A stretch of DNA of 64,000 bases, taken from NCBI RefSeq assembly GCF_034008315.1, contig NZ_CP125377.1:4586501-4650500 (forward strand), given 5' to 3'. Every line of letters starts with the position of its first letter. Within the stretch, counting starts at the first letter, position 1. The notes under the pieces are model-generated. The model had not been told where the DNA came from, did no database searches, and worked only from the letters and a program-made list of their open reading frames with translations. Shown here piece after piece: positions 43,969 through 62,671 of this stretch. Both the position numbers and the translations under genes were made by a program. The DNA is from Pseudomonas sp. P8_241. Its GTDB lineage: Bacteria > Pseudomonadota > Gammaproteobacteria > Pseudomonadales > Pseudomonadaceae.

Positions 43969-46047
43969 TTACTCGGTAATCTTCTCGAAGTTGCGGTAGA
44001 ACAGGTCGTCGTCTCGGCTGTCGGTCATGGAATGCAACTGGTAGCTGCGATTGAGCCGTGCACCGCCGTCTCGGGTCAGTGGCGACCAGACAAGGTTGGC
44101 GCGGCGCATGGTCGACATGCTCATCAGTTCGTCGAACGGAATAGACAGGTAGATGCCTTTGTCGAAACTACCCTCTCCGTATTCTGCACCGGTTGCGGTG
44201 GTGATGGTTGCCCAGGCACCAAACCGTACGCCGTTGGAAAACTCCCGTGAGATGTCCAGCGTGCCACCCCAGTCGCCGGCCAGGTAACGCCCGACGCTGA
44301 TGGCTGCCAGCGTATCGTAGGGCAAGTCGGTGTAGCCGGTGATGTGACCGGTCACCACCGAGTAATCACGCAAACCAAACCCCTGGTCAAAATCACGCTG
44401 ACGGACGTAATTCAGGTCCGCCCCCAATGACCAGCGCTCACCGGTCGGACGAAACAGCACCTCGCCCCCCACACCAGCAAACATCGACTCCATATAGCCG
44501 CCGTACACCATGCCGTACAGGTCTTTGTCCAACTGCTCGGCATGGCTGACCTGGAACAGCGGCATGGTCACATCGGAGGTGGTCATATACTGGCGCAAGT
44601 CCGTGCGCACACGCGGCAAGCCGCTGGGCGCGTCATAGGTGAACTTGTCGAAGTTGTTGATCAGGTTGGCACTGAGCAAGCCACTCCACCAGGTGTTGCG
44701 GTTGAACCGGTACTCGGCGTCCGCATCGGCGCTGAATTGATAGAGCAGGCCATCGGGGCCGCCCACGTTCTGCTTGAATCCCAACCCGACGCCATAAGCG
44801 AATGCCTGCGGCGCTTCGGTGTAGAGGGTTTTCTCGTTGTGCGGCATCGCCGGGTTGATCTCGGTGGTGCGGTGCAGCGTTTGCAGCGGCTCCTCGTTGT
44901 TGATCACTTCGCGAAAGGTTTGCCGAGGCACACTGGTCTCTTCAAGCGGCAGGTCGTAGCGCTTGTTGACCACGGTGAACCAGTCGATCTCGTCGTTGAC
45001 GCTGTTGTCCAGAATCCGGCTCGCACGGCCTACGCCTTTGGCCGAATGGAAGTAACGCTGCTGCTCGCCATACACGATCAATTCGGAATCGCGCTGACTG
45101 ATGCGCTCGACCTTGTACCCGGCATTTTGCTGCAGGCGCCGTGACACATCGGCCCAATTGACCTGATCCAACTCGGTGCTCGGCGCTTTCGCCGGCAATG
45201 GCTCAGCCGGTGGATCGAACGTCTTCGCCGGTGCCTTTCGGCTGACGAAGTTGGTGTGAAAGGTGACGCCGAACATCGCCGTGTTGCCACGTTCCCACGC
45301 CGCGCTGAAATCGACCGAGTCAGTCAGCTTGAACACCGCGCCGAGGTTGATCGGCGAGTCCTGCTTGATCTCGTTGTCCTTCGGCTCGTTCTTGTAATCG
45401 TTGCCCTCGTATTCGAGTTTCAGACTGAGCCGATCCCAAGGCGTCTGATAGCTTACGCCGCCGAAAAAGGAAGGGCTGCCGCGAAAGTACGCACCGGCGT
45501 TAACGTCACCGGTCCCTTCACTGTCCGGTCGGGTCTTGAAGCGATCATCGATATAGCCCAACGGGTTTTCGAAATCGCCGCGATTGCCCAGGTAACCCCA
45601 GGCAATCCCGGCGCTGAAGTCAAGGTTGTCGTAGCGCTTGTTGGCCACCACGAACTCACTGGAAAACAAGCCCGTACCACCGATGTCCCGGAAGCCCACG
45701 GCCACTTCGGGCGCCCAATGGGTTTCTTCCCATACGCGGGCTTTGAGGTCGACCGCCTTGTCCTTATAGCTCTGGCTGCCGCTCAGCGATTCGGGGCCGT
45801 AAGGGCGGTTGGTGATCGCGGTGTAGCGGAACGACCCTTCGAGCCATTCAAGCGGCTGTAGTGAAACGCTGTAACGGCTGTAGGGATCGGTGCGGTTGGC
45901 ATTGAGGCTCAATTCACCGGCCGGCGCCATTCGGGCCGTCGGCGTTTGCAACAGGCCCGCACCACCGAAATCATTCTGGGTAATACGCGGTTCTGCATAG
46001 GCCAAACCACACGGAAACAACAACACGGCTGCAAAACGTAAATTCAA
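43969..46047 (-). CDS. yjbH: YjbH/GfcD family exopolysaccharide outer-membrane protein
   Basis: A 692-residue YjbH-family protein. The signal peptide ends about residue 18 (AYA). GGAGLLQTPTARM begins the first beta-rich half, and many amphipathic strands run to the C-terminus (AGDWGGTLDISREFSNGVRFGAWATITTATGAEYGEGSFDKG). The protein is predicted as one or two beta-barrels that act with Wza in polymer secretion. It is the last gene of the yjbE-wza-yjbF-yjbG-yjbH operon and overlaps yjbG by four bases. Confidence 0.9.
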   Translation of the reverse strand: MNLRFAAVLLFPCGLAYAEPRITQNDFGGAGLLQTPTARMAPAGELSLNANRTDPYSRYSVSLQPLEWLEGSFRYTAITNRPYGPESLSGSQSYKDKAVDLKARVWEETHWAPEVAVGFRDIGGTGLFSSEFVVANKRYDNLDFSAGIAWGYLGNRGDFENPLGYIDDRFKTRPDSEGTGDVNAGAYFRGSPSFFGGVSYQTPWDRLSLKLEYEGNDYKNEPKDNEIKQDSPINLGAVFKLTDSVDFSAAWERGNTAMFGVTFHTNFVSRKAPAKTFDPPAEPLPAKAPSTELDQVNWADVSRRLQQNAGYKVERISQRDSELIVYGEQQRYFHSAKGVGRASRILDNSVNDEIDWFTVVNKRYDLPLEETSVPRQTFREVINNEEPLQTLHRTTEINPAMPHNEKTLYTEAPQAFAYGVGLGFKQNVGGPDGLLYQFSADADAEYRFNRNTWWSGLLSANLINNFDKFTYDAPSGLPRVRTDLRQYMTTSDVTMPLFQVSHAEQLDKDLYGMVYGGYMESMFAGVGGEVLFRPTGERWSLGADLNYVRQRDFDQGFGLRDYSVVTGHITGYTDLPYDTLAAISVGRYLAGDWGGTLDISREFSNGVRFGAWATITTATGAEYGEGSFDKGIYLSIPFDELMSMSTMRRANLVWSPLTRDGGARLNRSYQLHSMTDSRDDDLFYRNFEKITE

Positions 46048-46805
46048 CGAACCACCTCAGCCAGCTGCGTGGCAATAAATTCGGCCAACTGCTGATTCAG
46101 TTCAGGGATAGGCGGATCAAGGTCATCGTTTTTGACCGGGACCAGAATCTTGCTTCCGGCGGCCGGTATCTGCCCGCTCTCGCGATTCCAGTGCGCAATG
46201 CCGACTCGCCGGGAGACGCCGTTGGGCTGGATCAACCACAGGTAATCGGCGTCAGCGTCCTCGAGCGGCGCACAGCCTTGCAGGTAATCGCGGGCTTCTT
46301 GCAGCGCTTGATAGGGCAACCGGCAAGGTTCGGCGACAGCGCCAAACACCTCGACCTCATCGACCCGCAGCGGATAGATCAGACGGTCACCGTCGTCCAG
46401 GCGAATGTTGCGGGCGAACCCGACTTCCACGGCGACCGGGTCCAGAACGGCCACCTGGCGCCCGGTGACCGGCATGCGCCTGACGTCCTCGGCCAGACGC
46501 ACCGCCAGGGCGGCCCGGCTCGGCCTGTCGAAGAGCATGGCCATACGCTGCAACACGTCCAGATCAAACAGCACGCCGGCCTTGAGTCGGGTCTGTTGTT
46601 CAATCAGCGACTGCCGCAGCAAAACGCCCGCCAACCAGTAACTTTCGGCATTGGGTTGTGCCACGTTGATCACGTCGAGCAATCGTCCGCCCGCAGGCAG
46701 TTCGACCGCTCCCGGGTTGGCAACGTCACCGGTGACGGTGACCGCCGCCTGGCTCACGCCGGTGATCAACAGCAGGCACGCCGATAACGCTCTGACCCGC
46801 TTCAA
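46044..46805 (-). CDS. yjbG: YjbG/GfcC family periplasmic polysaccharide protein
   Basis: A 253-residue GfcC-like protein with a signal peptide (SACLLLITGVSQAA). A SLBB-type beta-grasp region (VTVTGDVANPGAVELPAGGRLLDVI) is followed by a second one (RLIYPLRVDEVEVFGAVAEPCRLPY), as in GfcC, and a C-terminal helix. Likely periplasmic partner of Wza/YjbH. It overlaps both neighbours by four bases, indicating tight translational coupling. Confidence 0.88.
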   Translation of the reverse strand: MKRVRALSACLLLITGVSQAAVTVTGDVANPGAVELPAGGRLLDVINVAQPNAESYWLAGVLLRQSLIEQQTRLKAGVLFDLDVLQRMAMLFDRPSRAALAVRLAEDVRRMPVTGRQVAVLDPVAVEVGFARNIRLDDGDRLIYPLRVDEVEVFGAVAEPCRLPYQALQEARDYLQGCAPLEDADADYLWLIQPNGVSRRVGIAHWNRESGQIPAAGSKILVPVKNDDLDPPIPELNQQLAEFIATQLAEVVR

Positions 46806-47467
46806 GGCGCATGCCTGCGATCAGGGGTCAGTTGAACAATCCTGACCCGCAACTGCGAAGTCAGTTGCTGTTCACTCTGCACAATGAAACCGTCAACGGG
46901 ATCGACCCAATAACGATTGGTCGCATGCAGGCCGATGGCCGGCGCGTCAATCTGCTCGTCGACACGCAGCACGGCGTATTCCTTGTTGAGGATTTCGAGG
47001 GTTTCCATGGATTGGCGGGAGAAGCGGCTGTTCAAGGTCACCCCGACTTCCTGGCCCTGGTAGAGGTCAATCCAGCGCTGGCTGGTGTAGCCATCCGGCA
47101 CTTGATGAAGACCTTTCTTGAAGGGCGAGACCGCTGCAAGGCGCGTCCCGTCCAGATCGCCGCCCAGGCCCAGGCCGATGCTGCGCACCGCCAGGCCATC
47201 GCGCATCAGCAGCACCTGCTTGCCGGACGCGACCCAGAACTGCAGGTCGCCGCGCTCACGCACCAACGCCAGCACGCCGGAACCGGACGGCGTGGTCAGC
47301 TTGAGCTGGGGATAGCGAACATCCGCCACCTGGGCTGCCGTCACGTCCAGTTCATCCGGCCCCGTCACCGCCGACTTAAAGTTGGTCAAGGAAGCGACCA
47401 TCAGCGGGTTACAGCCACACAACATCAAGGCCGCTATCAAGCAGACGCCAACATTCAACGTTCTCAC
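46802..47467 (-). CDS. yjbF: YjbF/GfcB family lipoprotein
   Basis: A 221-residue lipoprotein with lipobox LCGC. The YjbF domain begins KSAVTGPDELDVTAAQVADVRYPQLKL and contains LVRERGDLQFWVASGKQVLLMRDGLAV, then RTIGL-like and DRRHAP at the end. Outer-membrane lipoprotein of unknown detail, required with YjbG and YjbH for the polymer in related systems. Overlaps yjbG by four bases. Confidence 0.88.
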   Translation of the reverse strand: MRTLNVGVCLIAALMLCGCNPLMVASLTNFKSAVTGPDELDVTAAQVADVRYPQLKLTTPSGSGVLALVRERGDLQFWVASGKQVLLMRDGLAVRSIGLGLGGDLDGTRLAAVSPFKKGLHQVPDGYTSQRWIDLYQGQEVGVTLNSRFSRQSMETLEILNKEYAVLRVDEQIDAPAIGLHATNRYWVDPVDGFIVQSEQQLTSQLRVRIVQLTPDRRHAP

Positions 47468-47481
47468 GATCGGACCCGGCC

Positions 47482-48597
47482 TTAATTGCTGTTGCTGCTG
47501 ACTTCGCTCATGTTCTTCGCCGCAGACGCGCCCGTACCGACAATCGCTGCCGACGGCACCAATTGGCTGACGAAGCGATTCCAGCGAGTCACGTTGGCAG
47601 GACCTACGTAGACAACGTCCTGGGGACGTACTTCAAAGTGCGTGGCCAGCGCCATGGCGGTCGGTGACTGGGCTTGCAACTGGTAGACCTTCGCCGGCTC
47701 CACATCGAGGTTTTCAACACCCCTGATCACGTACACGGCGTTGCCGTTGGAGGTGGTCTGACTCAATCCGCCGACCGATCCCAGCACATCGGACAGGTTC
47801 ATGGTGGCGGTCTTGAAACTCAATGCGCGTGGCTGGTTGACTTCGCCCATGACGTAGATGCGTTTCTTGTCGTTGTACGGCAGATAGAGCTGATCGCCAC
47901 CCTTGAGATAGACATTCTGCAACTGCGAATCCGGCTGATTGAGCGTGTCGAGACTGAGCGTGTACACCCGCCCGTTTCGCGTCAGCAAAAGACCGGACAA
48001 GTCGGCACTCGTCGTATCGATACCGGCTGTACCGAGGGCCTCGACCACACTCAACGGATTGGTGGAAATCGCCTGCGGACCGGCCTTGGCAACGGCGCCC
48101 GTCACCACGACTTTCTGACTGGAAAAGCGCCACACGGCGACATCCACCTGCGGGTCGGCGATGAAGGCCGACAGCCTTTCTTCGATGTCCGATCGCAGTT
48201 GCTGGACGGTCTTGCCGGCCGCCTGCACCTCTTTGATAAACGGGTAGTAGAGCGTGCCATCGGCACGGACCAGGCGACCGTTGGCATCGATCTGCTGTTG
48301 CGCGCCGGAGGGTGCGGTCAGCTCCGGGTGGTCCCAGACCGTGATGTACAGCACATCGTTACTGCCGATGCGGTACTCGGCCGGGGCCGCCAACAGTTCC
48401 GTCGGCACGGACTCACGCTTTTGCGTGGCCCTGTTCATGGCGATGAGCTTGGGCGTGATCGGAATGAGCTCGACTCGGCTGCTCTCACTGGCGCCCTGGC
48501 GTGTGATATCACTGGTGCTCAGGTATTGGCCGGGGGAAAACATGCAACCTTGTAAAGCGATGCTTGCCAACATTAAAAGAGAAAAACTACGAGTCAT
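47482..48597 (-). CDS. wza: Polysaccharide export outer-membrane lipoprotein Wza
   Basis: A 371-residue Wza. Lipobox LQGC near residue 18, poly-export domain (YRIGSNDVLYITVWDHPELTAPSG) and two SLBB domains (VVVTGAVAKAGPQAI; IYVMGEVNQPRALSF), with a C-terminal amphipathic helix (NRFVSQLVPSAAIVG) that would form the outer-membrane pore. It links to Wzc, which is encoded about 10 kb away in the second operon. It lies between yjbE and yjbF, the position of gfcE in group 4 capsule clusters. Confidence 0.93.
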   Translation of the reverse strand: MTRSFSLLMLASIALQGCMFSPGQYLSTSDITRQGASESSRVELIPITPKLIAMNRATQKRESVPTELLAAPAEYRIGSNDVLYITVWDHPELTAPSGAQQQIDANGRLVRADGTLYYPFIKEVQAAGKTVQQLRSDIEERLSAFIADPQVDVAVWRFSSQKVVVTGAVAKAGPQAISTNPLSVVEALGTAGIDTTSADLSGLLLTRNGRVYTLSLDTLNQPDSQLQNVYLKGGDQLYLPYNDKKRIYVMGEVNQPRALSFKTATMNLSDVLGSVGGLSQTTSNGNAVYVIRGVENLDVEPAKVYQLQAQSPTAMALATHFEVRPQDVVYVGPANVTRWNRFVSQLVPSAAIVGTGASAAKNMSEVSSNSN

Positions 48598-48625
48598 AAT
48601 GGCACTACGCTATTCAAGGGCGAAT

Positions 48626-48659: not shown

Positions 48660-48686
48660 CCTGTACTGCACTAACCGATGTTCCGG

Positions 48687-48923
48687 TTAGTTATGCGTGC
48701 CGGTGGTACCAGTGGTACCTGTCGTACCCGTGGTACCGCCGTTGGCACTTCCACCGCTGTTGGACGCCGCTACAGCGCTGGCGACCATTGCAGTACTGGC
48801 TGCTGTGGCTTGAGTCGCCGCCACGTTACCCAATACATTGGTCGCTGCTGTAAGCGGCGCTTCAACCGCGCCGGCCCAGTTGCTCACCATCGACAACAGG
48901 GCAATTGCCATCACTTTCTTCAT
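48687..48923 (-). CDS. yjbE: YjbE/GfcA-like small secreted protein
   Basis: 78 residues: signal peptide (KKVMAIALLSMVSNWAGA), an Ala/Thr-rich helix (AATQATAASTAMVASAVAAS) and a C-terminal GGTTGTTGTTGTTGTHN repeat. This matches the composition and length of E. coli YjbE and the Thr-rich GfcA. ATG with AAAGGAG upstream. It is the first gene of the yjb-wza operon. Confidence 0.75.
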   Translation of the reverse strand: MKKVMAIALLSMVSNWAGAVEAPLTAATNVLGNVAATQATAASTAMVASAVAASNSGGSANGGTTGTTGTTGTTGTHN

Positions 48924-49152
48924 ATCAACTCCTTTCTAACATTCAACCCGATCGAAACCGTGTGTGTGTTAGAGGTGGTAGCGTTCAAGTCCGCAAAAGA
49001 GCGAACAAGAGCCGTTGTTCTTTCACAGTCTTACCCAACTGATAAAGTCGAACGGCAGGTTTATATCTACGGACTTGCAAATGGCATTGCCAGTGTATTT
49101 TGCAGACGATATCTAACAACCTGACTGAAAATAACATTGAGCTAAATCGCCA

Positions 49153-50169
49153 TCATTTCTCGTAGCCCTTGGGATGATTCGATTGCCAGCGCCAAGTGTC
49201 GGTGACCATGTCCTGCAAGTTGCGTGTGGCTTTCCAGCCCAGCTCTTTCGCCGCTTTGGAAGCATCTGCCCAACTCTGGGCAATGTCACCCGAACGTCGC
49301 GGCATCATCCGATACGGCACCGGCTGCCCGCACGCCTGTTCAAACGCGCGCAGCACTTGCATCACGCTGTAGCCATCGCCCGTACCGAGATTCCAGGTAT
49401 GAACGCCAATACGCCCGGTAATGGATTGCAAAGCCTTGAGATGCCCGTCCGCGAGGTCCACGACATGGATGTAGTCACGCACGCCAGTGCCGTCGACCGT
49501 GGGGTAATCGTTGCCGAAGATCGACAGCTCTTTCAGGCTGCCAACCGCCACCTGGCTGATATAGGGCACCAGGTTGTTGGGAATGCCATTGGGGTCTTCG
49601 CCCAACTGACCGCTTTGATGCGCGCCGATCGGGTTGAAATACCGCAACAGGGCGATGCTCCAGCGCGGATCGGCCAGGCTCAGGTCACGCAGCACGTTTT
49701 CGACAATCAGCTTGGATTGACCGTAGGGATTGGTCGGGATGCCCGTGGGGAAATCCTCGCGGATCGGCATCTGCTCCGGCGCGCCGTATACCGTTGCCGA
49801 TGAACTGAACACCAGGCGAAACACGCCAGCAGCGGCCATCGCCTGACACAGCGTGATACTGCCGCTGACGTTGGTCTCGTAATACTCAAGCGGCTTGCGC
49901 ACGCTCTCGCCCACGGCCTTGAGCCCGGCAAAGTGCAGGACGGCATCAATGGCATGCTCTTGGAAAATCCGCTCGAGCAAAGCCCGGTCGCGCACATCGC
50001 CGCGAACCATCAGTGCACTTTTGCCGCAAATACCTTCTACTGCATGCAATGCCGCGTCGCTGCTGTTGCAAAGATTATCCAGCACTACAACTTCATAGCC
50101 TGCTTCAAGCAGCGCGAGTGTGGTGTGCGAGCCGATATAACCGGCTCCACCCGTTACCAGAATTTTCAT
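49153..50169 (-). CDS. galE: UDP-glucose 4-epimerase
   Basis: A 338-residue extended SDR: NAD site MKILVTGGAGYIGSH, catalytic Ser in SSSATVYG and the pair in NPYGQSKLIVE. It interconverts UDP-glucose and UDP-galactose (possibly the N-acetyl forms). ATG 50169 gives the standard GalE length; ATG 50181 is an alternative. Placed beside galU and the EPS genes, it probably supplies UDP-galactose for the polymer. Confidence 0.93.
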   Translation of the reverse strand: MKILVTGGAGYIGSHTTLALLEAGYEVVVLDNLCNSSDAALHAVEGICGKSALMVRGDVRDRALLERIFQEHAIDAVLHFAGLKAVGESVRKPLEYYETNVSGSITLCQAMAAAGVFRLVFSSSATVYGAPEQMPIREDFPTGIPTNPYGQSKLIVENVLRDLSLADPRWSIALLRYFNPIGAHQSGQLGEDPNGIPNNLVPYISQVAVGSLKELSIFGNDYPTVDGTGVRDYIHVVDLADGHLKALQSITGRIGVHTWNLGTGDGYSVMQVLRAFEQACGQPVPYRMMPRRSGDIAQSWADASKAAKELGWKATRNLQDMVTDTWRWQSNHPKGYEK

Positions 50170-50551
50170 AGTGCGGTCCATAGTGGCAGAAGTGCGTGTC
50201 AAGCCTCTCTTGTCAAAGATGTGTGCTGAACCACACAAACAAGAGCGACAACAACCCAAAACAAAATTAGTTCAACGACTGGCAATAAATTTTTTTGCAG
50301 GTCAAACTGTAGTGCGGGATACTTATTAGCACTCCGACGACTTCACCACTATCAACAGATACCGACTAAAAATAACCAATAACTATTAAACCGACATCTC
50401 ATAACATTGTCGTGTTATTCGCACATTGCTATTTGCCACTAACGGCCCGACTCAGGTATTAAAGCAAGCCTTCAATAATCATTGAAACTTGCAATCACTC
50501 ATTATTGTGCGCACCCGTTGGCTGTGTTCCATGACTGTCCAGGATACTTTT
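50170..50551. promoter_or_regulatory. Divergent galE/galU promoter region
   Basis: 382 bases, much richer in A/T than the flanks, with no gene. It contains TTCAAT-AATC-ATTGAA (50471-50486) and a TATTAAA half-site (50457-50463) similar to the TTAATAC half-sites at 61511-61546. This suggests common regulation of the EPS genes, but with weak support. Confidence 0.4.
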
Positions 50552-51385
50552 ATGATTCGTAAATGTTTGTTCCCCGCTGCCGGCTATGGCACGCGTTTCT
50601 TGCCGGCGACCAAAGCCATGCCCAAGGAAATGCTGCCCATCGTCAACAAGCCATTGATCGAGTACGCCGTCGAAGAGGCACGCGACGCCGGCTTGCAGCA
50701 CATGGCAATCGTCACCGGCCGGGGCAAGCGCGCGCTGGAAGACCACTTCGATATCAGCTACGAGCTCGAGCACCAGATTCGCGGCACCGAGAAAGAGAAG
50801 TTCCTGGCCGGCACCCGCGAGCTCATCGACACCTGCACCTTCTCCTACACCCGTCAGGTGGAAATGAAGGGCCTGGGCCACGCGATTCACAGTGGCCGCC
50901 CGTTGATCGGTGACGAACCCTTCGCCGTGGTTTTGGCCGATGACCTGTGCCTGAACCTGGAGGGTGATGGAGTTCTCGCGCAAATGATCGAGCTCTACAA
51001 AAAATTCCGCTGCTCGATCGTGGCCATCCAGGAAGTGCCGCGCGACCAGACCCACAAGTACGGCGTGATCGCCGGCGAGCTGATCTCCGATGGGATTTAC
51101 CGGGTCAACAACATGGTGGAAAAACCCGCTCCGCAAGACGCGCCATCCAACCTGGCAATCATCGGCCGCTACATTCTGACGCCGGATATCTTTGACCTGA
51201 TCGCCGATACGCAACCGGGTAAAGGCGGGGAAATCCAGATCACCGACGCACTGATGAAACAGGCGCAGAACGGTTGCGTGCTGGCCTACAAGTTCAAGGG
51301 CTTGCGCTTCGATTGCGGTGACGCCGAGGGTTACTTGCAGGCGACCAACTTCTGCTACGACAACGTGTACCTCAAGGGCCGCTGA
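50552..51385 (+). CDS. galU: UTP-glucose-1-phosphate uridylyltransferase
   Basis: A 277-residue nucleotidyltransferase: CLFPAAGYGTRFLPATKAMPKEMLPIV (nucleotide and metal site), then ELEHQIRGTEKEKFL and GIYRVNNMVEKP. It makes UDP-glucose, the precursor for EPS, LPS core and trehalose. ATG 50552 chosen; the upstream in-frame codons are not conserved in this family. Divergent from galE. Confidence 0.95.
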   Translation: MIRKCLFPAAGYGTRFLPATKAMPKEMLPIVNKPLIEYAVEEARDAGLQHMAIVTGRGKRALEDHFDISYELEHQIRGTEKEKFLAGTRELIDTCTFSYTRQVEMKGLGHAIHSGRPLIGDEPFAVVLADDLCLNLEGDGVLAQMIELYKKFRCSIVAIQEVPRDQTHKYGVIAGELISDGIYRVNNMVEKPAPQDAPSNLAIIGRYILTPDIFDLIADTQPGKGGEIQITDALMKQAQNGCVLAYKFKGLRFDCGDAEGYLQATNFCYDNVYLKGR

Positions 51386-51432: not shown

Positions 51433-51855
51433 ATGAACATTGAAAAACTCTCGGCATACATTGCAATGGAGGTGGGCAACCTCGGGGTGATGTCCTCGTT
51501 ATCGCGACATCAGCGGTTGCCGAGCGCCAACGAGTCCTGGCTCGGCCCCACGCTGCTGGTGGAGCGAATCGGCTTGTTTCCCGCCTCCGGAGACATCCGC
51601 CGGCCGATGCTCGATCCCTATCCCCTCCTCGCTCACCTGAAAAGACTTTATCGCGGGCAGGCGCTGGAGATGGATGACCGTGACGGGCTGAAATTGATTT
51701 TCAGTGACTGGCGATTCCGAGTGCGCATTTGCTGCAACGATCCGGCCATCATCATCAACGTGGAGACCCGTTGTGCTACGCAACTGATGCCGCTCAAGAC
51801 AGCAGAGCTGCTCGCTCATCTGGAGACATTCGAAATTTGCCGCAGCATCCTGTAG
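51433..51855 (+). pseudogene. Stand-alone C-terminal fragment of phosphomannomutase/phosphoglucomutase
   Basis: 140 residues. Residues about 43-135 align with the end of CpsG/ManB-type phosphomannomutases: LLVERIGLFPASGDIRR, then DGLKLIFSDWRF and VETR. The phosphate-binding loop SNTEP of the intact enzymes reads CCNDP. The catalytic Ser, metal-binding and sugar-binding domains I-III are absent. The frame is open and begins with a plausible ATG. It ends at the TAG of a REP element. It is either decayed or a repurposed domain. The genome probably has a full AlgC elsewhere. Confidence 0.65.
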
Positions 51856-51931
51856 GAGCTGCCGAAGGCTGCGATCCTTTGACATGATCCTGAAAAAAAT
51901 CAAAAGATCGCAGCCTTCGGCAGCTCCTACA
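51851..51931. repeat. REP pair providing the stop codons of two convergent genes
   Basis: 26-base perfect inverted arms (51851-51876 and 51906-51931; TGTAGGAGCTGCCGAAGGC type). The TAG in each outer TGTAGG is the stop codon: 51853-51855 for the mutase fragment and 51927-51929 for the SGNH hydrolase. Confidence 0.88.
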
Positions 51932-55238: not shown

Positions 55239-56458
55239 GCCAGAGCCCCTTTCGGACGGGTCACACGGGTCAGCACGGCAATCACGCCGAGCTGCACGAT
55301 GATCGCAAAGACGTTGCCCCAGGCGGCGCCGTAGATCGAATAGTGCTTGATCAGCACGTAGCTGACCGGTACCGAAACCAACAAGCAGATCGCCGCACTG
55401 GCCAGTGAAACCCGACTGTTCTTCGAAGCAATCAACCCGCCCCAGACGATGTCCCCAATGGCACGCAGGGCGAAGGAAAAAATCAGCACGCCAAGGATCG
55501 CGTTATCCGGACGCGGCACTGTCGTGGCGACGTAATCGAGCACGACATTGAAGAACAGATAAATCAGCACAGCCACCGCGGCGGACACCGCCAGCGAGCG
55601 CATGACCCATTTGTTCACGAACAGTTGCCGGACCGTAAACGGCTGTTGATTCGCCTGAAACCGCTTGGCGAGCACCGGAATGCCGACCACCGCCACCACC
55701 GCGTAAGACAATGCCTGCAAGGTGTTGGCCGCCGACCAGGCGTACACGTATTGACCGAGGCTGGCGTAGGGTTCGATGTCGATGATCAGAAAGCGTTCGG
55801 CGTACTGACTCAACGCGATCAACCCGGTGCCGAGATAGAACGGCAACCCGGCTTTCCACACCGTGGCCGTGGCCGGCGTCCCGCTGGCTCGACCCTTGTG
55901 CACGTTCGCCACAATCAGGTAACCGGCGACGATCACCAACACGTTGGCGACGACCCACAGCCACAACACGTCGGCGACTCCCGACACCCAGCCGAGCATC
56001 ATCGCGCCCACCGCCAACAGCGCCCACAGGCCAGTCTTGATAAAAAACAGCAGCGCGCCCGCCGTGGCTTTTTGCGCGGAAAACACGAACGAGTTGATTT
56101 CGAACGACAGGTGCTCAGTGAGTAAAACCAGCGTCACACAGAGGATCAGTGCGGTCGGCGCGACAACCTGTTGGAACAGTGAATACATCAACACCGTCAC
56201 CACCGACAACACCAGCCCCACCGCCAGATACAGCAGCAGCACTTTGTCAATCACTCCCCGCGAACTGCCGCCAACGCTGATCAGCCGATTGATCTCGGAA
56301 CTGAAACCAACGCTGTAGAACTTCGACGCAATCAACGAGGCAGCGACCACCACGCCGTAAAGGCCAAGCGCTTCATAACCCAGGTAGTGGGTGATGGCGA
56401 GCACCAGCAGAAACTTCGCGCCCAATGCCCCGCCCCGGAGCAACAACCGGAATATCAT
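55229..56458 (-). CDS. wzx: Wzx-type lipid-linked oligosaccharide flippase
   Basis: A 409-residue MOP-superfamily membrane protein with about twelve helices, opening RLLLRGGALGAKFLLVLAITHYLGYEALGLYG. It moves the undecaprenyl-linked repeat unit to the periplasmic face. Overlaps the pyruvyltransferase stop region by four bases and the polymerase by ten. Confidence 0.85.
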   Translation of the reverse strand: MIFRLLLRGGALGAKFLLVLAITHYLGYEALGLYGVVVAASLIASKFYSVGFSSEINRLISVGGSSRGVIDKVLLLYLAVGLVLSVVTVLMYSLFQQVVAPTALILCVTLVLLTEHLSFEINSFVFSAQKATAGALLFFIKTGLWALLAVGAMMLGWVSGVADVLWLWVVANVLVIVAGYLIVANVHKGRASGTPATATVWKAGLPFYLGTGLIALSQYAERFLIIDIEPYASLGQYVYAWSAANTLQALSYAVVAVVGIPVLAKRFQANQQPFTVRQLFVNKWVMRSLAVSAAVAVLIYLFFNVVLDYVATTVPRPDNAILGVLIFSFALRAIGDIVWGGLIASKNSRVSLASAAICLLVSVPVSYVLIKHYSIYGAAWGNVFAIIVQLGVIAVLTRVTRPKGALAWG

Positions 56459-57567
56459 CGAACGATGCCTTTGATAATCTCGTCCATGGCCACGGCTTTC
56501 GCTTCGATCTCGCGACAGGTGTCGGTCAGGCGCTTGCCAAAATCGGACAATGCGTTCGGCGCGTAAACCGTGTTGATGATGGTGTCGACATCGATATCGC
56601 CGCCGTTGATCACCCAGTCTTCCACACCCATGTCCTGATAGGCGCCGAAGCCTTTTCTCTCGTAGCTGATGTGGTACGCCGGCACACCGGACAGCAGCGA
56701 TTCGATGGCGCCGTGCAAGCGCACGGAAATCACCAGATCCGGCTGAAACCTGGCCAGCGTCGCCTTCAATGGCAGCAGGTCTTCGGTAATGCCCAATTCG
56801 CGATAGAACGCACCGTCATCGTTGCCGCGAACGGCGCTCTGGACCGCGCAAACCACCTTGCTTTTGTTCTTCAAGCGCTGCAGCAGCAACTTCAGGTTGG
56901 CCACGTAGGCAACTTTCTTTTCCTTGCTCCACGCCGGCGGCTTGCGCAGCACCACGCACACCGTTGCCGGCGAAGACGCGCAATGGGTGAACTTGGGTTG
57001 CATGAGGATTTTGCCGGCCAATGACTGGACTGCCAGATCAGGCGCGCGGTAGACATTTTCACAGGCATCGAAAATTGCCGAGGAGCGGTTATCGCGCACA
57101 AACACCGCATCGGCGCGCGCGTAGTGCTCGACGATCTTGCTGCTTTCGCCATGAAACGGCCCGATGCTTTGCGGCAGGTACACCGACGGTACTTTACTGA
57201 GGATCGCCGTTTCCAGTTGCTTGGCGTGGCCCAGTTTCAACTTGATGTGTTCGAAGGCACTTTTCGAGCGCATGTAGCCGCCGCCGACTCCAACGATCAA
57301 ATCGGTCTTTTTCAACAGGTCAGCCAGACCAGCGTAAGACTGATTGAGAAACACCGCTTGCTTGACCCGGCCCAAGCCCTTGGCCGCCATCACCGGCGCG
57401 TCGAAACGCTTGTGCGGCAAGTAATTGAAGGAGTCGGGATCTGAGGCCACGACACTGATCGAAGTCTCTTCTCCAAAATTGCGCTGCACCAGGGCAATGG
57501 CCAGATCGACGAGCAGACCGTCACCGGAGTTGGACGCGCTATAGCCATGCAAAATCGTTACGTTCAT
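56455..57567 (-). CDS. Polysaccharide pyruvyl transferase
   Basis: A 370-residue CsaB/WcaK family protein: HGYSASNSGDGLLV near the start, LIVGVGGGYMRSKS, YLPQSIGPFH and the C-terminal LVISVRLHGAIESLLSGVP. It transfers pyruvate from phosphoenolpyruvate to form a ketal on a sugar, which makes the polymer acidic. It overlaps wzx by four bases, so pyruvylation is tied to the repeat unit. Confidence 0.88.
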   Translation of the reverse strand: MNVTILHGYSASNSGDGLLVDLAIALVQRNFGEETSISVVASDPDSFNYLPHKRFDAPVMAAKGLGRVKQAVFLNQSYAGLADLLKKTDLIVGVGGGYMRSKSAFEHIKLKLGHAKQLETAILSKVPSVYLPQSIGPFHGESSKIVEHYARADAVFVRDNRSSAIFDACENVYRAPDLAVQSLAGKILMQPKFTHCASSPATVCVVLRKPPAWSKEKKVAYVANLKLLLQRLKNKSKVVCAVQSAVRGNDDGAFYRELGITEDLLPLKATLARFQPDLVISVRLHGAIESLLSGVPAYHISYERKGFGAYQDMGVEDWVINGGDIDVDTIINTVYAPNALSDFGKRLTDTCREIEAKAVAMDEIIKGIVR

Positions 57568-57582
57568 AAGCTTGAGTTCTAC

Positions 57583-58665
57583 TTAAAAAGAGGGGGCGCG
57601 ATACAGGTCGTAGGTCTGGCGGATCATCAACGCGGCGCTGAAGCGCTCGCGCACGATGCTGCGACCTTCGCTGCCAAGGTCAAGCAACCGTGGCTTCTGG
57701 ATTTTCGTCAGCACATCGGCCAGCGCCTGGTGGTCACCGGTGGGGAAAACGTAGCCGGACACCTCATGGGAGACCAGCTCGGGCAACGACGTGCAATTGC
57801 TGGCAATTACCGGCAGGCCCATGGCCATGCCTTCCAGCGGCACCATGGCAAAACCTTCCCAGCGACTGGGCACAATCAACGCATCGGCTTGCTGGTACAG
57901 CGCCTGCACTTCGCTCGGCGTGACCCAAGGCAAATATTCAACCGCGTCCATCGGTGGACATTCGACCGAATCCTCGTTGACGGCACTGCCCACCACCGTC
58001 AATTTCAGATCGGTGCGCTGCACATTAGCGAAGGCCTTGAGCAGCACGTCGAAGCCTTTCTGATAATCGAGGCGGCCGACGAAGAGCAGATGAATCGGCT
58101 CGGGGCTGGTGGTTTTCGGCGTGTCATCCTTGCGGTGAATGCCGTTGTAGATCAGCTTCATGCGCTGGCGCTCAATGCCAAACCGCGCCGCTTTGTCGAG
58201 TTCGTACTGGCTGACGCAGATGATCACGTCGGTGACCTTCTGCAACACCCGCTCGATCCATGCGTAGGCTTTCTGCTTGGTCGGGGAGCTTTCCATCAGA
58301 AATGAAAAAGCATGCGGGCAGTAGACGATTTTCGGCTTGCGCCAAGGTCGCAACAGGACGCAGACGCAACGGCCGATCACCCCGGAAAAGGTGCTGTGCA
58401 AATGCACCACATCGGGTTTTTCCTTGAGCATCACCTGGGTCAGTCGCCAGGCGAAACGCAGCAATGACGGCACATTGCGGCCAGTCCTGGCAAAGGTACG
58501 AATCTGCTGCGCAGGGATGCCGTGCAGCTCCTTTTCCTGATCCTGTGGCACTAGATAGACCAGCTCATAGTTAGCCGCGTCATCTTCGGGCGAAGTCGAA
58601 ATCGTGCGGATAACGGTCGCCACACCACCTTTTATCGTTTCAGCCACGTGCAGTATTTTTTTCAC
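57583..58665 (-). CDS. Glycosyltransferase (GT4, GT-B fold)
   Basis: About 360 residues. N-terminal KKILHVAETIKGGVATVI, DVVHLHSTFSGVIG, C-terminal LLFVGRLDYQKGFDVLLKAF and the nucleotide-sugar site PSRWEGFAMVPLEGMAMGLPVIAS. It is a retaining GT4 and the only glycosyltransferase in the operon. GTG 58665 is preferred, giving MKKILHVAE; ATG 58686 is possible. Confidence 0.88.
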   Translation of the reverse strand: MKKILHVAETIKGGVATVIRTISTSPEDDAANYELVYLVPQDQEKELHGIPAQQIRTFARTGRNVPSLLRFAWRLTQVMLKEKPDVVHLHSTFSGVIGRCVCVLLRPWRKPKIVYCPHAFSFLMESSPTKQKAYAWIERVLQKVTDVIICVSQYELDKAARFGIERQRMKLIYNGIHRKDDTPKTTSPEPIHLLFVGRLDYQKGFDVLLKAFANVQRTDLKLTVVGSAVNEDSVECPPMDAVEYLPWVTPSEVQALYQQADALIVPSRWEGFAMVPLEGMAMGLPVIASNCTSLPELVSHEVSGYVFPTGDHQALADVLTKIQKPRLLDLGSEGRSIVRERFSAALMIRQTYDLYRAPSF

Positions 58666-58706
58666 AGTCCACCCACTTGCATGCATGTAAGAAAAATCGC
58701 TGAAAC

Positions 58707-60935
58707 TCAGGATTTGTCGGACGCGTATTCGTAGTTGTAATAGCCGTAGCCGCCGTTGCCGTAATAGCTCGCAGCACGCTTCTCGACGCCGTTGAAAACG
58801 GCGCCCTTCAACTCGATGCCGTTCTGTGCGAATCGTCGAATCGTCAACTCGACTTCTTTGGCCGGGTTCACCCCGAAACGGGTGACTATCAGGCTGATGC
58901 CCGCTTCACGGCCGACAATCGCCGCGTCTGTCACCGCCAGCAGCGGTGGCGTGTCGATGATCACCACGTCGTAAAGCTCACTGAGCTGTGCCAACAATTC
59001 GCGAAAATTGGCGTGCATCAGCAGTTCTGAAGGATTGGGCGGAACCTGACCGCGACTGATGAAATACAGGTTGTCGACTTCGACCTGGTTGATCGCCTGC
59101 TCGATAGTGCAGCGCTTGACCAACAGGTCCGACAAACCATTGGTGATCGGTGTGTTCAGCGTCTTGTGCAGGTGACCTTTGCGCATATCGGCATCGATCA
59201 GCACCACCCGCTGACCGCTCTGCGCCATGACCGCCGCGAGGTTGGAAGAGACAAAGGTTTTGCCCACCTGGGGGCTGGGCCCGGAAATCATGATCCGGTT
59301 ATTGGTCGAGTCCAGACCGGCAAAGTGCAGGCAGGTGCGCAAACTGCGGATCGACTCGATGGACAAGTCCGTCGGGTTGCGCAGCGCCAACAGGTAGGCC
59401 GGTTTGTCCGACGCGCCCTTCGAGCGCAGTTTTTTACTGTCCTCTTCCTGTTGCAACGCGCTGTATGGAATTGACGCGTACACCGGCAAGCCGAGTTGCT
59501 CGATGGCTTCCGGACCTTCCAGGCCGCGACTCAGGGACTTGCGCAGCAACACCAGCGCCACCGCGAAAAAGGCGCCGAGAAAGGTTGCAATCAGCACGAT
59601 CAGTGCCTTGCGCGGCTTGACCGGGTTGGTCATGTCGACATCCGCCGTGTCGACCAATCGCACGTTGCCCACCGCCCCTGCCCGGACGATGTCCAGTTCC
59701 TGGGATTTGTTCAGCAGTTGCGTGTAGATCTGCGACGCCACTTCTACATCGCGGGTCAGGTTCAGCAGCTCCTGTTGTGTGGCAGGCAGGTCCTGTGCCT
59801 TGCTCTCCAGCGTCTTCTGCTGTTGGGTCAATTCGCCGATCTGGGTCATCAAGGCGCGGTACGCCGGATGCTGTTTGGTGAATTTGCGATCCATCTCCGC
59901 CTGTTGCATTTTCAGTTCAGAGATACGGGTGTCCAGACTGACGACCTGTTCCAGCACCGATTGGGTTTCCAGGGAAATGTTGACCGTCTTGCCGCGGGTT
60001 TGATAACCGTTGAGCGCATCGCTGGCCTTGGCCAGGTCGCGTTTGACTTGCGGCAGCTGACCTTGCAGGAACGCCAGGCTCTGCGCCGCTTCCGCCGACG
60101 TGCGTTGTACGTTCTGCTGCACATATAACGCAGCGACTTTATTGAGAATCCTCACCGCCTCGGCCGCGTCGGTGCTGGCCAGGGCCAAGCGAATAATCCC
60201 CGACTCCTTGCCTTGCTCGGAAATATCCAGCGCATCCTGGTAACTCTGGATGGTCACGATCCGTGGGTTGCGCACCACTTCGAAGCGGGTGCCAGGGTTG
60301 GCCGACAGCTGAGCGACCTGCCCCTCTATCCCGCCCTGCGCGAACGCCTCGCCAGCGACACCTGCGACCAGCAAGTTGTCGTTTTCATCGAACAACTGGA
60401 ATCGACCCTGCTCGCCGGCGACCAGCGTGAGCTTCTTGCCAAGCATTTCTTTTGGCAAATTGAGCCGGGTGATCTCCAGGCGCTCACCGCCCCAGGCGTA
60501 GCTGTTCAGACCGAAACGCGGTGCCGCTACGCTGAACTCGGTCTCGCCGCGATAACGCCGGGCGAAAAAACCGCCAATCACCGGGAAGGTGTTGGGGGTG
60601 ACGTCGATATCAAGGCGAAGATCATCGACAGTTTTGCCGATCACCGCGCGGGACTTGATGATGCCAATCTCGGTCACCGACGGCGATTGTCCGCCTAACA
60701 TGCTGTTGAGGTCGGAAAAACCGAGCATGTCGTTCTTTTTCGGCTCGACCTGCACCAGCGCGTTCGCCATGTACACCGGCGTCGACAAAACCGCGTAGGC
60801 AACGCCGGTCATCATGAACGCTCCGGTGAGCGCACCTATTAACCATTTCTGGTCAACCAAAGAACCAAAAATGCCGAGAAGATCAATACTGTCTTGATCG
60901 TTGTCCCGGGTGCCGATTACTGACGGTAACTGCAT
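58707..60935 (-). CDS. wzc: Wzc-type chain-length and tyrosine autokinase
   Basis: About 742 residues. Wzz domain with TM1 (about 30-50) and a long periplasmic coiled region, TM2 near 445, then a cytosolic BY-kinase: Walker A SGPSPQVGKTFVSSN, A' VVLIDADMRKG and Walker B VVIIDTPP. The C-terminus is a Tyr cluster (SYYGNGGYGYYNYEYA) that is the autophosphorylation site. It controls polymer length and Wza coupling. ATG 60935 is chosen; GTG 60956 is possible. Confidence 0.92.
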   Translation of the reverse strand: MQLPSVIGTRDNDQDSIDLLGIFGSLVDQKWLIGALTGAFMMTGVAYAVLSTPVYMANALVQVEPKKNDMLGFSDLNSMLGGQSPSVTEIGIIKSRAVIGKTVDDLRLDIDVTPNTFPVIGGFFARRYRGETEFSVAAPRFGLNSYAWGGERLEITRLNLPKEMLGKKLTLVAGEQGRFQLFDENDNLLVAGVAGEAFAQGGIEGQVAQLSANPGTRFEVVRNPRIVTIQSYQDALDISEQGKESGIIRLALASTDAAEAVRILNKVAALYVQQNVQRTSAEAAQSLAFLQGQLPQVKRDLAKASDALNGYQTRGKTVNISLETQSVLEQVVSLDTRISELKMQQAEMDRKFTKQHPAYRALMTQIGELTQQQKTLESKAQDLPATQQELLNLTRDVEVASQIYTQLLNKSQELDIVRAGAVGNVRLVDTADVDMTNPVKPRKALIVLIATFLGAFFAVALVLLRKSLSRGLEGPEAIEQLGLPVYASIPYSALQQEEDSKKLRSKGASDKPAYLLALRNPTDLSIESIRSLRTCLHFAGLDSTNNRIMISGPSPQVGKTFVSSNLAAVMAQSGQRVVLIDADMRKGHLHKTLNTPITNGLSDLLVKRCTIEQAINQVEVDNLYFISRGQVPPNPSELLMHANFRELLAQLSELYDVVIIDTPPLLAVTDAAIVGREAGISLIVTRFGVNPAKEVELTIRRFAQNGIELKGAVFNGVEKRAASYYGNGGYGYYNYEYASDKS

Positions 60936-60974
60936 AAGTTTGTTCTTACCATTCACTGATCTGAAGGATATTCA

Positions 60975-61415
60975 TCAATGTCCGAGGCGCTGCGCCCATG
61001 AGCAAACAGCATCTTCAATCAATGCATGGGCATGAATAAAAGCGGCCTTTCCCTGACGATACGGATCCTGTATTTCTCGCTCGCTTTGCCATTTACCGAG
61101 CAGAAACACTTTGCCCCGCGCATGGGCGGCAATGTTCAGTACTTGTTTTACATGGGCTTGTTCCATGACCAGAATCAGGTCTGATTCATTCACGATATCC
61201 GCTGTAATTTGCCGTGCCTTAAACCCTTGGGCACTGTGCCCATACTCTTCCAGCACCTGGAGCGCCACCGGCTCCATGGCCTCACCGACCCTTGCTGCAA
61301 GGCCCGCAGAGGTCACACTGATGGCTGAAGGGGCCAGTGCGTTACGCAGCAAAGTTTCTGCTGTCGGACTTCGGCAGATATTGCCAACGCAGACGACAAG
61401 GATCTTTTTGAACAA
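60975..61415 (-). CDS. wzb: Low-molecular-weight protein-tyrosine-phosphatase Wzb
   Basis: 146 residues. P-loop CVGNICRS (Cys 9, Arg 15), second motif DPYRQG with the general acid Asp near residue 118. It dephosphorylates Wzc. Start TTG 61415 with AGGA eight bases upstream gives the natural length; upstream in-frame residues are spurious. First gene of the EPS operon. Confidence 0.9.
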   Translation of the reverse strand: MFKKILVVCVGNICRSPTAETLLRNALAPSAISVTSAGLAARVGEAMEPVALQVLEEYGHSAQGFKARQITADIVNESDLILVMEQAHVKQVLNIAAHARGKVFLLGKWQSEREIQDPYRQGKAAFIHAHALIEDAVCSWAQRLGH

Positions 61416-61510
61416 GGTTACTTTCCTGGATAATATCAATAGGCCAACATCTAGATGTGGACTTGAGTGAATCCACAGACCTTGCGGCACGCACAAATAG
61501 ATTCGCCCTG

Positions 61511-61546
61511 TTAATACAAGTGTATTAAGTACCACAGCACTTAATA
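61511..61546. promoter_or_regulatory. Cluster of TTAATAC inverted repeats in the wzb / glycoside hydrolase promoter region
   Basis: Perfect palindrome TTAATACA-AG-TGTATTAA (61511-61528), which overlaps a second inverted repeat TATTAAGT-N8-ACTTAATA (523-530 and 539-546 of 61 kb). Three half-sites are therefore spaced regularly in a 290-base AT-rich divergent region. It is a likely operator for the EPS operon and the divergent hydrolase. Confidence 0.5.
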
Positions 61547-61705
61547 GCTCCCAACCAGAATTAGCGGACCAAAAATAACTGTGATTTTCCGGCAATCATT
61601 ACCTGACAAAAAATAACATTCACGCACTTTGTGATTTCGTCGCTCTCGAAATGAAAGGAATGAATAAATGATTGGCGAGTGCCATTACCATCCAGGAGAG
61701 CAGAC

Positions 61706-62671
61706 ATGAGATCAGTACATTTCAAATGGCTCACCGCCTCGACCCTGTTGATGCTCAGTACGGTAAATCAGGTTCACGCCAACGACGTGTTCCCCGTACT
61801 TGCCGCGAACAAAACCATTGGCGTCCAAGTGAAGATCCAGACCTTCTCCCCTTCCGATGCCGAGCAGATCAAAGCCGCCGGGTTCGGCTTCGTGCGCTTT
61901 GGCGTATGGACCAATAGCCTGGGCGGCCCGGCGTATCAAAAGCAGATCAGCGACGCCTTTGCCGCGGCAAAATCCGCCGGGCTGCCGGTACTGATGACCG
62001 TTCGCTCGACCAAGTCGCTGCTCTCCGGGCCCGGCAACATCAATGAACTGGCCGCCGCGGGTGAGTCGTTTGCCAACTCGGTGATGAGTCTGGAGAAATC
62101 CTATGGCACGCAGCTCGTCGCGATTGAAATATGGAACGAGCCGGACCTGGAAACGTACTGGCCAACGGGCCATTTCGACACCACGTTTGTTCCAATCATG
62201 AGTGCCGTATGCAGGTCGCAGCAGGACACGCTGCAATCGACGCCGCTGATTGGCTTCGGCTTCGCCCGCCCGCCGAGTGCCGGAACGGCGTCAACCGTTG
62301 CGTTGAACAGCATCGTCAGTGAATACCCCAAGTGTCTCAGCGCAATCTCCTATCACCCTTATGGGATGTCGGGCGCGCAGATAAGCACTGCGCAGACGTT
62401 CATTCAACAGAACTTCAACCTACCGGGCGTCATCAGTGAATGGGGCGTTCCCTCGCTCAACTCCAACGGCGGGATCGAGGCGCAGGCCGGCAAAATCAGC
62501 GGTTTCATCGCCGAGGTCAAAAGGCTCAACATCCCGCTTACTTCGATCTATGAGTGGAAAAACAGTCAAACTGGCAGCAATGAACGGGAGAGAAATTTCG
62601 GTTTGCTGACTGCTGGCGGTCAACCGAAACCAGCGAGCGTGGCTGCCTCAACCCAGTTGAATGACCAGTAG
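61706..62671 (+). CDS. Secreted glycoside hydrolase (PslG-like, GH39/GH5-type fold)
   Basis: A 321-residue protein with a signal peptide (cleavage near HA-ND, residues 25-26). It forms a (beta/alpha)8 barrel with general acid/base Glu 145 (EIWNEPD) and nucleophile Glu 245 (VISEWGVPS); SYHPYG lies between them. PslG and similar EPS-linked hydrolases cut polymer in the periplasm or on the surface. GGAGAG precedes ATG 61706. Divergent from wzb, sharing its regulatory region. Confidence 0.82.
   Translation: MRSVHFKWLTASTLLMLSTVNQVHANDVFPVLAANKTIGVQVKIQTFSPSDAEQIKAAGFGFVRFGVWTNSLGGPAYQKQISDAFAAAKSAGLPVLMTVRSTKSLLSGPGNINELAAAGESFANSVMSLEKSYGTQLVAIEIWNEPDLETYWPTGHFDTTFVPIMSAVCRSQQDTLQSTPLIGFGFARPPSAGTASTVALNSIVSEYPKCLSAISYHPYGMSGAQISTAQTFIQQNFNLPGVISEWGVPSLNSNGGIEAQAGKISGFIAEVKRLNIPLTSIYEWKNSQTGSNERERNFGLLTAGGQPKPASVAASTQLNDQ

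Follow-up and report, generated by a model that had tools for sequence, protein, structure and literature searches.

In this work we have analysed a polysaccharide locus at positions 43969..62671 of a 64-kb window, that is, the whole stretch of Pseudomonas sp. P8_241 DNA under study (64,000 nucleotides). The gene calls rest on Pfam and NCBIfam profiles and on BLASTP against E. coli K-12, and the true starts of galE (about 50169), galU (about 50552) and wzb (about 61415) were placed by profile match. The locus contains the following features:

43969..46047, minus strand: yjbH/gfcD, outer-membrane protein of the Yjb/Gfc export module (PF06082, E 1e-246; BLASTP 43% to E. coli YjbH, 41% to GfcD)
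46044..46805, minus strand: yjbG/gfcC, SLBB/GfcC protein (PF06251, PF20616; 28% to YjbG)
46802..47467, minus strand: yjbF/gfcB, lipoprotein (PF11102, E 3.2e-30)
47482..48597, minus strand: wza, outer-membrane polysaccharide export (OPX) protein (PF02563, SLBB_2, Wza_C; 40% to E. coli Wza, 41% to GfcE)
48687..48923, minus strand: yjbE-like 78-aa peptide with a Gly/Thr-rich tail (called from position and composition only)
49121..49135, minus strand: motif GTTATTTTNNGTCNG upstream of yjbE, exact (a site with at most one mismatch in 54/66 loci)
49153..50169, minus strand: galE, UDP-glucose 4-epimerase (TIGR01179, 463.7 bits, cut-off 262.3; start from profile match)
50362..50376, minus strand: the motif between galE and galU, exact (66/66 loci)
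50552..51385, plus strand: galU, UTP-glucose-1-phosphate uridylyltransferase (TIGR01099, 392.1 bits, cut-off 326.8)
51433..51855, plus strand: pmmC, free-standing C-terminal phosphomannomutase-like domain (PRK15414, positions 365-455 only)
51927..53057, minus strand: SGNH/GDSL hydrolase, probably editing acyl groups (PF13472; GDSY, GND and DKIH in the translation)
53085..54122, minus strand: membrane O-acyltransferase (PF01757, Acyl_transf_3)
54135..55238, minus strand: probable wzy polymerase (position and 8 hydrophobic segments; AlphaFold model helical, mean pLDDT 87)
55229..56458, minus strand: wzx flippase (PF01943, 20.5 bits, under the cut-off of 28.2; 11 hydrophobic segments)
56455..57567, minus strand: polysaccharide pyruvyltransferase (PF04230)
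57583..58686, minus strand: GT4 glycosyltransferase, the sole glycosyltransferase recognised in the cluster (PF00534, PF13439)
58707..60956, minus strand: wzc, co-polymerase and BY-kinase with a C-terminal tyrosine cluster seen in the sequence (PF02706, PF13807, PF23607; 43% to Wzc, 41% to Etk)
60975..61415, minus strand: wzb, low-molecular-weight tyrosine phosphatase (PF01451; 46% to E. coli Wzb, 44% to Etp; start from profile match)
61565..61579, minus strand: the motif, exact, the copy nearer to wzb in a tandem pair (at least one site in 68/68 glycosidase/wzb regions)
61603..61617, minus strand: the second tandem copy, 38 bp apart, exact
61679..62671, plus strand: secreted clan GH-A type glycosidase with a PslG-like fold (NEP and SEWG kept without exception in an alignment of 16 sequences; top PDB fold match PslG, 4zn2)

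An earlier note on this DNA had placed galE and galU between the two operons, yjb-wza and wzb-wzc. Both genes were confirmed by profile, but galU lies on the plus strand, divergent from galE, and is followed by pmmC, an ORF of 140 aa that matches just the C-terminal domain of phosphomannomutase. pmmC and the yjbE-like peptide were each found in 66 of the 68 loci, the remaining two loci stopping short of the gene. The peptide resembles GfcA/YjbE only in size, signal-like start, position and Gly/Thr-rich tail, and BLASTP against GfcA/YjbE of E. coli K-12 gave no match at E 0.1. The cassette was read correctly as far as the GT4, pyruvyltransferase, acyltransferase, SGNH and divergent glycosidase genes are concerned; the Wzx profile score, however, is below its cut-off and wzy has no family match, neither to Pfam nor to NCBIfam models. 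For the AlphaFold model of the candidate Wzy no PDB fold match was obtained at E 0.001. ArnT (E 0.2, probability 0.93) scored best among its weak, non-trivial neighbours, which also included the WaaL ligase (E 2, probability 0.16); they would neither prove nor deny a polymerase role for this predicted structure. The PDB sequence search gave just two matches for the SGNH protein (E 0.29 and 0.5) and none at E 1 for YjbH. The glycosidase, a probable polymer trimming enzyme, is present in all 68 loci with the pyruvyltransferase and also in locus L083; the wzb-containing stretches of five loci lacking the pyruvyltransferase gave no match to it at E 1e-4.

Do the yjb and wzb halves belong together, as had been proposed? 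In 398 Pseudomonas genomes searched, yjbH lay no more than 10.8 kb from the pyruvyltransferase in all 54 genomes that carry the latter, in line with the proposal. Gene order was conserved in 68/68 named loci, each compared up to its contig end. The linkage of the two halves exceeds chance by far, and together with the linked genes they are real genes forming one unit. This unit is larger than the region first outlined, in which three linked genes were missed: wcaJ and two OmpR-type regulators, all outside the 64-kb window. In 47 of the 54 genomes wcaJ is found 181-1437 bp from yjbH. It encodes a WcaJ-type initiating glucose-phosphate transferase (447.9 against the TIGR03023 cut-off of 410.75) which falls under the cut-off for WbaP, the galactose type (235.1 against 403). 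The regulators adjoin wcaJ, and wcaJ adjoins the yjb operon, in the relatives L101, L103, L104 and L105. In Pseudomonas sp. P8_241 wcaJ is 2.4 Mb from the locus, and the wcaJ-regulator block is displaced rather than adjoining yjbH, apparently following an inversion.

The motif is common to the three promoter regions of the locus (yjbE, galE-galU and wzb). Since it was derived from these promoters, only its occurrences elsewhere count as independent; four further loci, from relatives with other sugar cassettes, carry it upstream of wzb-wzc. It was absent within one mismatch from 12 of the 66 yjbE upstream regions and within two mismatches upstream of wcaJ, while 2 of the 54 pyruvyltransferase genomes (G005 and G062) had no exact site. 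Nor was there genome-wide enrichment, with 23 sites at up to one mismatch against 40 for the reversed control. The OmpR-type regulator TRC2 occurs in 86 of 93 genomes with yjbH as against 5 of 260 without it. On this correlation only, TRC1 and TRC2 probably bind the GTTA-N6-GTC sites and activate the operons and their own genes. By analogy with the SBW25 CAP switch, the regulators may be under Gac/Rsm control. FleQ was also considered as the owner of the motif and rejected, as its consensus quoted in PMC6120874 looks unlike it.

What could this unit make? It contains an initiating phosphoglycosyltransferase (PGT), a glycosyltransferase, a flippase (with a profile score below cut-off), a co-polymerase/BY-kinase and an OPX protein, as in Wzx/Wzy-dependent capsule and exopolysaccharide systems. 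Candidate enzymes for building a Glc-Gal repeat that bears pyruvate and acyl groups are all present (galE, galU, GT4, PF04230, PF01757 and WcaJ). Marginalan, an exopolysaccharide of P. fluorescens/P. marginalis, consists of glucose and galactose in a 1:1 ratio with pyruvate and succinate, in agreement with the galU, galE, pyruvyltransferase and acyltransferase genes found here. We therefore lean towards a Wzx/Wzy locus whose product is a galactoglucan with pyruvyl and acyl groups, marginalan being its likeliest identity. Marginalan is described as an exopolysaccharide made by P. fluorescens (PMC5812248). Among the matches listed in the open-licence literature, none assigned genes to marginalan or described this cassette, and none of the 68 locus records is labelled P. 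marginalis. We infer both the polymer and the function of the regulators, and assembly might proceed as follows. WcaJ, by its predicted specificity, would put Glc-1-P onto undecaprenyl phosphate, and the single retaining GT4 would add alpha-Gal from UDP-Gal supplied by GalE. The pyruvyltransferase would then attach a pyruvate ketal, probably at positions 4,6 of Gal. Wzx would flip the repeat unit, the acyl pattern perhaps being set by the acyltransferase and the SGNH protein, and the candidate Wzy would polymerise the disaccharide units. Wzc and Wzb could govern chain length through tyrosine phosphorylation cycling, Wza with YjbFGH would export the chain, and the PslG-like glycosidase might trim it. 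The OmpR-type regulators near wcaJ would switch on the operons and their own genes through GTTA-N6-GTC.

The locus had been described as group 4 capsule-like, with homologues of all seven genes of that operon. Six of these were confirmed (GfcB, GfcC, GfcD, GfcE, Etp and Etk), but GfcA/YjbE was not detected by BLASTP. In E. coli the group 4 operon runs gfcABCDE-etp-etk, an order that is not contiguous here. A true group 4 capsule, in which O-antigen repeats are exported by the Yjb/Gfc machinery, would fit the YjbFGH homologues, a WecA-family gene in the genome and Wza, Wzb and Wzc that are nearly as close to GfcE, Etp and Etk as to the colanic acid set; we nevertheless regard it as very improbable, because a Wzx, a Wzy candidate and a glycosyltransferase are encoded within the locus itself, WcaJ is linked to it, and the gene order differs. 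The label also misleads, given that Wza, Wzb and Wzc stand at about the same distance from the colanic acid proteins as from the group 4 ones, that the linked initiating enzyme is of the WcaJ type, and that the genes follow another order. Colanic acid of E. coli shares Wza, Wzb and Wzc at 40-46% identity and the predicted WcaJ-type initiation, but YjbFGH are an addition here and fucose or uronate genes were not recognised in the cluster by profile searches. Could both residues be galactose, with the PGT acting as a galactose-phosphate transferase? A pyruvylated disaccharide galactan is reported for Burkholderia cepacia (PMC6801904), and galE would provide UDP-Gal, but the linked PGT scores as WcaJ and not as WbaP, which leaves this reading improbable, if less so than the group 4 one.

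In line with the impression given in the earlier note, profile searches identified no gene in the cluster that is typical of alginate, Psl, Pel or cellulose. The closest published system is the colanic acid-like CAP locus of SBW25, compared by its published description. PMC4357382 and PMC6519391 give wcaJ-wzb as pflu3658-3678, with regulators pflu3654-3657 directly upstream and, inside, four glycosyltransferases, five precursor genes and four genes of unknown function; the polymer contains fucose and uronic acids, and SBW25 is without the usual UDP-galactose genes. On that description the two systems share wcaJ at one end, wzb at the other, upstream regulators and a capsule product, but differ in the sugar cassette: galE, one glycosyltransferase and the pyruvyltransferase are found here, and fucose/glucuronate precursor genes are not. 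The acidic, acylated polymer that the earlier note had suggested is likely, and the CAP locus is a published counterpart in Pseudomonas. Other candidates were considered. The P. putida Pea operon resembles the locus, by description, in having a polysaccharide export operon (PP_3126-3128) near it; PMC6120874 also places a FleQ peak upstream of PP_3126. Another predicted acidic Pseudomonas exopolysaccharide is Pap of P. fluorescens F113, for which Table 1 lists a UDP-glucose dehydrogenase, its own PGT, three glycosyltransferases, a deacetylase and a separate kinase and Wzz, naming neither YjbH nor a pyruvyltransferase, with some proteins given as hypothetical (PMC7716237). Pap was rejected as a match, the present cluster having no UDP-glucose dehydrogenase, deacetylase or three glycosyltransferases. 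It may still be that glycosyltransferases or sugar nucleotides are borrowed from elsewhere, giving a CAP-like heteropolymer with a repeat larger than a disaccharide. SBW25 capsule mutations also map outside CAP, in genes such as galU, pgi and udg (PMC4357382), and the P8_241 genome carries further exopolysaccharide-type loci with glycosyltransferases. However, the span from wzc to the acyltransferase is 7847-7935 bp in all 68 loci with no intergenic gap above 84 bp, and therefore a second glycosyltransferase gene has no space there. With the fucose/uronate genes also unrecognised in the cluster, we consider a larger repeat unlikely, though the least so of these alternatives, and prefer the galactoglucan.

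The chassis is common to part of Pseudomonas, and relatives fit different sugar genes to it: one, L118, carries GDP-fucose/glucuronate genes and another single relative a pseudaminate-like set. Perhaps, and we put the chances at about even, this is a K-locus-like system with a fixed chassis (one end with wcaJ, the OmpR-type regulators and yjbFGH-wza, the other with wzb-wzc, and one motif), swapped cassettes (at least pyruvylated galactoglucan, fucose/glucuronate and pseudaminate-like nonulosonate) and one potentially bistable switch, the type described here being the missing marginalan locus. The SBW25 capsule has been studied for evolved ON/OFF switching. If the proposal is true, that capsule would represent just one version of a more widespread capsule locus whose cassettes can be exchanged. 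Marginalan, reported to aid the survival of dried P. fluorescens cells (PMC5812248), would gain a candidate gene locus, and the regulators and their motif offer a concrete hypothesis that is testable in laboratory strains.

Do the two halves of the cluster belong together? We addressed this with 68 loci, all from GTDB genomes, which were found by scanning named genomes with the pyruvyltransferase of the cluster (pyr, PF04230), and all of their record titles name Pseudomonas. The genes named in the earlier note are present between 43969 and 62671, except that the proposed homology of YjbE was not borne out, the protein matching neither GfcA nor YjbE of E. coli in sequence. On the minus strand, galE, yjbE, wza, yjbF, yjbG and yjbH form one block and, further up, wzb, wzc, a GT4 glycosyltransferase gene, pyr, wzx, a wzy candidate, an acyltransferase gene and an SGNH gene form another. 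The glycosidase gene, whose product is secreted, is divergent from wzb. It had been claimed that galE and galU lie between two operons; galU is divergent from galE, and it lies between the blocks in the opposite orientation together with pmmC, which encodes a 140-aa phosphomannomutase C-terminal-domain protein. The wzy candidate has a confidently predicted fold (pLDDT 87), and no solved structure matched the model at E 0.001. We also noticed by eye a REP-like inverted repeat (51850-51935) in the convergent gap between pmmC (51433-51855, kept in 66 of the 68 loci) and the SGNH gene.

The order from the glycosidase gene through wzb, wzc, the glycosyltransferase gene, pyr, wzx, wzy and the acyltransferase gene to the SGNH gene is kept in 68/68 loci, followed by pmmC-galU-galE-yjbE-wza-yjbF in 66; the remaining two, L058 and L064, stop earlier at a contig edge. 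The stretch that begins with wzc and ends with the acyltransferase gene measures 7847-7935 bp in every locus (7869 bp in the window), with no gap above 84 bp. Among 398 evenly drawn Pseudomonas genomes, each protein being scored at E 1e-60, the pyruvyltransferase was found in 54 and YjbH in 103. The co-occurrence proposed as a check in the earlier note was found throughout: pyr and yjbH share a contig, 5.4-10.8 kb apart, in 54/54 genomes, which shows that the halves belong together, and the remaining 49 genomes with yjbH lack this pyruvyltransferase. The locus of genome G329 (L083) is a divergent version (pyr 62%, glycosyltransferase 59%, wzy up to 69%) and is rearranged, with the yjb operon upstream of galU, the glycosidase gene, wzb, the glycosyltransferase gene and pyr.

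We found no initiating phosphoglycosyltransferase in the cluster. The window genome has four PF02397 genes, one of which, 2.4 Mb away and without other recognised EPS enzymes at its flanks, encodes a WcaJ-type enzyme, a predicted undecaprenyl-phosphate glucose phosphotransferase (447.9 bits, cut-off 410.75). The other three genes each lie at a separate place (L080, L081 and L082); L080 also carries UDP-glucose dehydrogenase, an OPX protein, a BBP2_2 barrel and GH16, and because of this combination it is another EPS-type locus. Of the 54 genomes with pyr, 47 have a WcaJ relative at a distance of 181-1437 bp from yjbH, five have it on another contig, and the window genome has it far away; in G329 it is absent at E 1e-150, yet a match split in two is seen about 5 kb from yjbH. 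Among the 49 genomes with yjbH and without pyr, wcaJ is within 25 kb of yjbH in 45 (within 4 kb in 34) and on another contig in four. The wcaJ gene is adjoined by uppP and by TRC1 and TRC2, predicted regulators with an OmpR-type DNA-binding domain, the order being uppP-TRC2-TRC1-wcaJ and then convergent yjbH in L101, L103, L104 and L105. In the window genome yjbH instead adjoins a U32 peptidase gene and wcaJ a LysR gene, whereas the same LysR and U32 genes are neighbours in four of the five relatives searched; no U32 match turned up in the fifth, G256. These adjacencies are likely the result of an inversion with breakpoints between wcaJ and yjbH and between LysR and U32, probably at 43944-43969 of the window and at L079:9080-9203. 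In a close relative (L102, G021:C46; G021:C150:949) wcaJ and yjbH are on different contigs, wcaJ inside a long one, but the LysR-U32 pair is intact, which may reflect a further rearrangement or a break in the assembly. In L099 (G372) the matches to yjbH, wcaJ, TRC1 and TRC2 are all split in two, which suggests a decaying copy of the chassis.

Strongly conserved blocks in three promoter regions (alignments of 67-69 sequences each) share the core GTTATTTTNNGTCNG. Four copies in the window are exact, one ahead of yjbE, one between galE and galU, and two as a tandem pair that precedes wzb. Sites with no more than one mismatch occur in 68/68 glycosidase/wzb, 66/66 galE/galU and 54/66 yjbE regions of the 68 loci, as against seven elsewhere in 1.42 Mb. 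The 6.39 Mb window genome has five exact copies versus none for the reversed control; allowing one mismatch gave no genome-wide enrichment (23 versus 40 control sites). Because the motif was derived from these promoters, its independent test is its occurrence elsewhere. The mean number of exact sites is 3.35 for the 54 genomes with pyr (at least two in 52, none in G005 and G062), 1.47 for the 49 with yjbH only (at least one in 40) and 0.19 for the 295 without yjbH, the reversed control averaging 0.81 in the genomes with pyr and 0.59 in those with yjbH only. Among the sites listed, 32 in 18 yjbH-only genomes, 19 (13 genomes) are within 25 kb of yjbH and 13 are not. Four such genomes with sites near yjbH were picked for a closer look (L115-L118): in L115, L117 and L118 wzb-wzc is preceded by two tandem sites 29-30 bp apart, and the two sites that precede wzb in L116 are widely spaced. 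A pmmC gene also lies beside wzb in these four (35-45% identity). The yjbH-centred stretches L085-L100 from genomes without pyr, which mostly stop short of wzb, mostly have no site with up to one mismatch.

A search of 353 genomes (G000-G024 and G038-G365) for TRC2 at E 1e-15 was positive in 91, namely 86/93 with yjbH and 5/260 without. The seven yjbH genomes lacking TRC2 average 0.71 exact motif sites versus 2.6 in those having it, and no exact site occurs in the five that have TRC2 without yjbH. In 8/8 aligned sequences the TRC2 leader carries two GTTA-N6-GTC skeletons, which do not match the full motif, and a CAGGGA adjoining the start codon. Such a leader is what self-activation and Rsm control would predict.

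What might the locus produce? With one GT4 enzyme, a glucose-type initiating transferase, GalE and the pyruvyltransferase, the simplest repeat would be a Gal-Glc disaccharide bearing a pyruvate ketal and an O-acyl group; the single GT4, being retaining, would make an alpha link. Marginalan, a 1:1 glucose-galactose polymer with pyruvate and succinate, is a well-fitting prediction. P. fluorescens is described as making marginalan, which protects dried cells (PMC5812248), and a pyruvylated disaccharide galactan is on record for B. cepacia (PMC6801904). Among the best 120 relatives of the glycosyltransferase, those named outside Pseudomonas, 44-46% identical, include Pantoea, Mixta, Winslowiella and Serratia proteins. 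The glycosidase model (mean pLDDT 76) had PslG (4zn2) as its first structural match (E 1.7e-10, 18% identity), and its NEP and SEWG motifs are invariant in 16 aligned sequences. The gene is present in 68/68 loci with pyr and in L083, and the stretches retrieved for L084 and L115-L118, wzb included, gave no match to it at E 1e-4; this distribution fits a polymer-specific role.

The published description of the capsule locus of P. fluorescens SBW25, for a colanic acid-like polymer, places wcaJ-wzb at pflu3658-3678 with activators (pflu3654-3657) directly upstream, and proposes ON/OFF switching through GacA/GacS, RsmA/E and positive feedback (PMC4357382, PMC6519391). By that description its regulators, wcaJ and far-end wzb resemble the arrangement in the relatives studied here. 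The SBW25 polymer is described as containing fucose, glucose, glucuronic and galacturonic acid and two unidentified sugars, and the strain as lacking the usual UDP-galactose genes (PMC4357382, PMC6519391), so the sugar cassette of the window, galE, galU and one glycosyltransferase gene, is a different one. By its gene content L118, from one genome, carries an SBW25-like set (UDP-glucose dehydrogenase, Gmd, GDP-fucose synthase and ManC), and ManC is also present in L084 and L091. L117 (G050, one genome) has a pseudaminate-like set between wzb-wzc and wza-yjb, comprising a PF02719 dehydratase, a DegT aminotransferase, a Glyco_tran_28_C protein, NeuB, a GalE-like protein and a glycosyltransferase. 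The locus is real and coherent, one unit that extends beyond the window. Of the new claims, three stand out as strongest: that WcaJ and the regulators are linked to the locus, that its promoters share a motif, and that the cassette varies. As read from the genes, different cassettes sit in Pseudomonas on one chassis, with wcaJ, the regulators and yjbFGH-wza at one end and wzb-wzc at the other.
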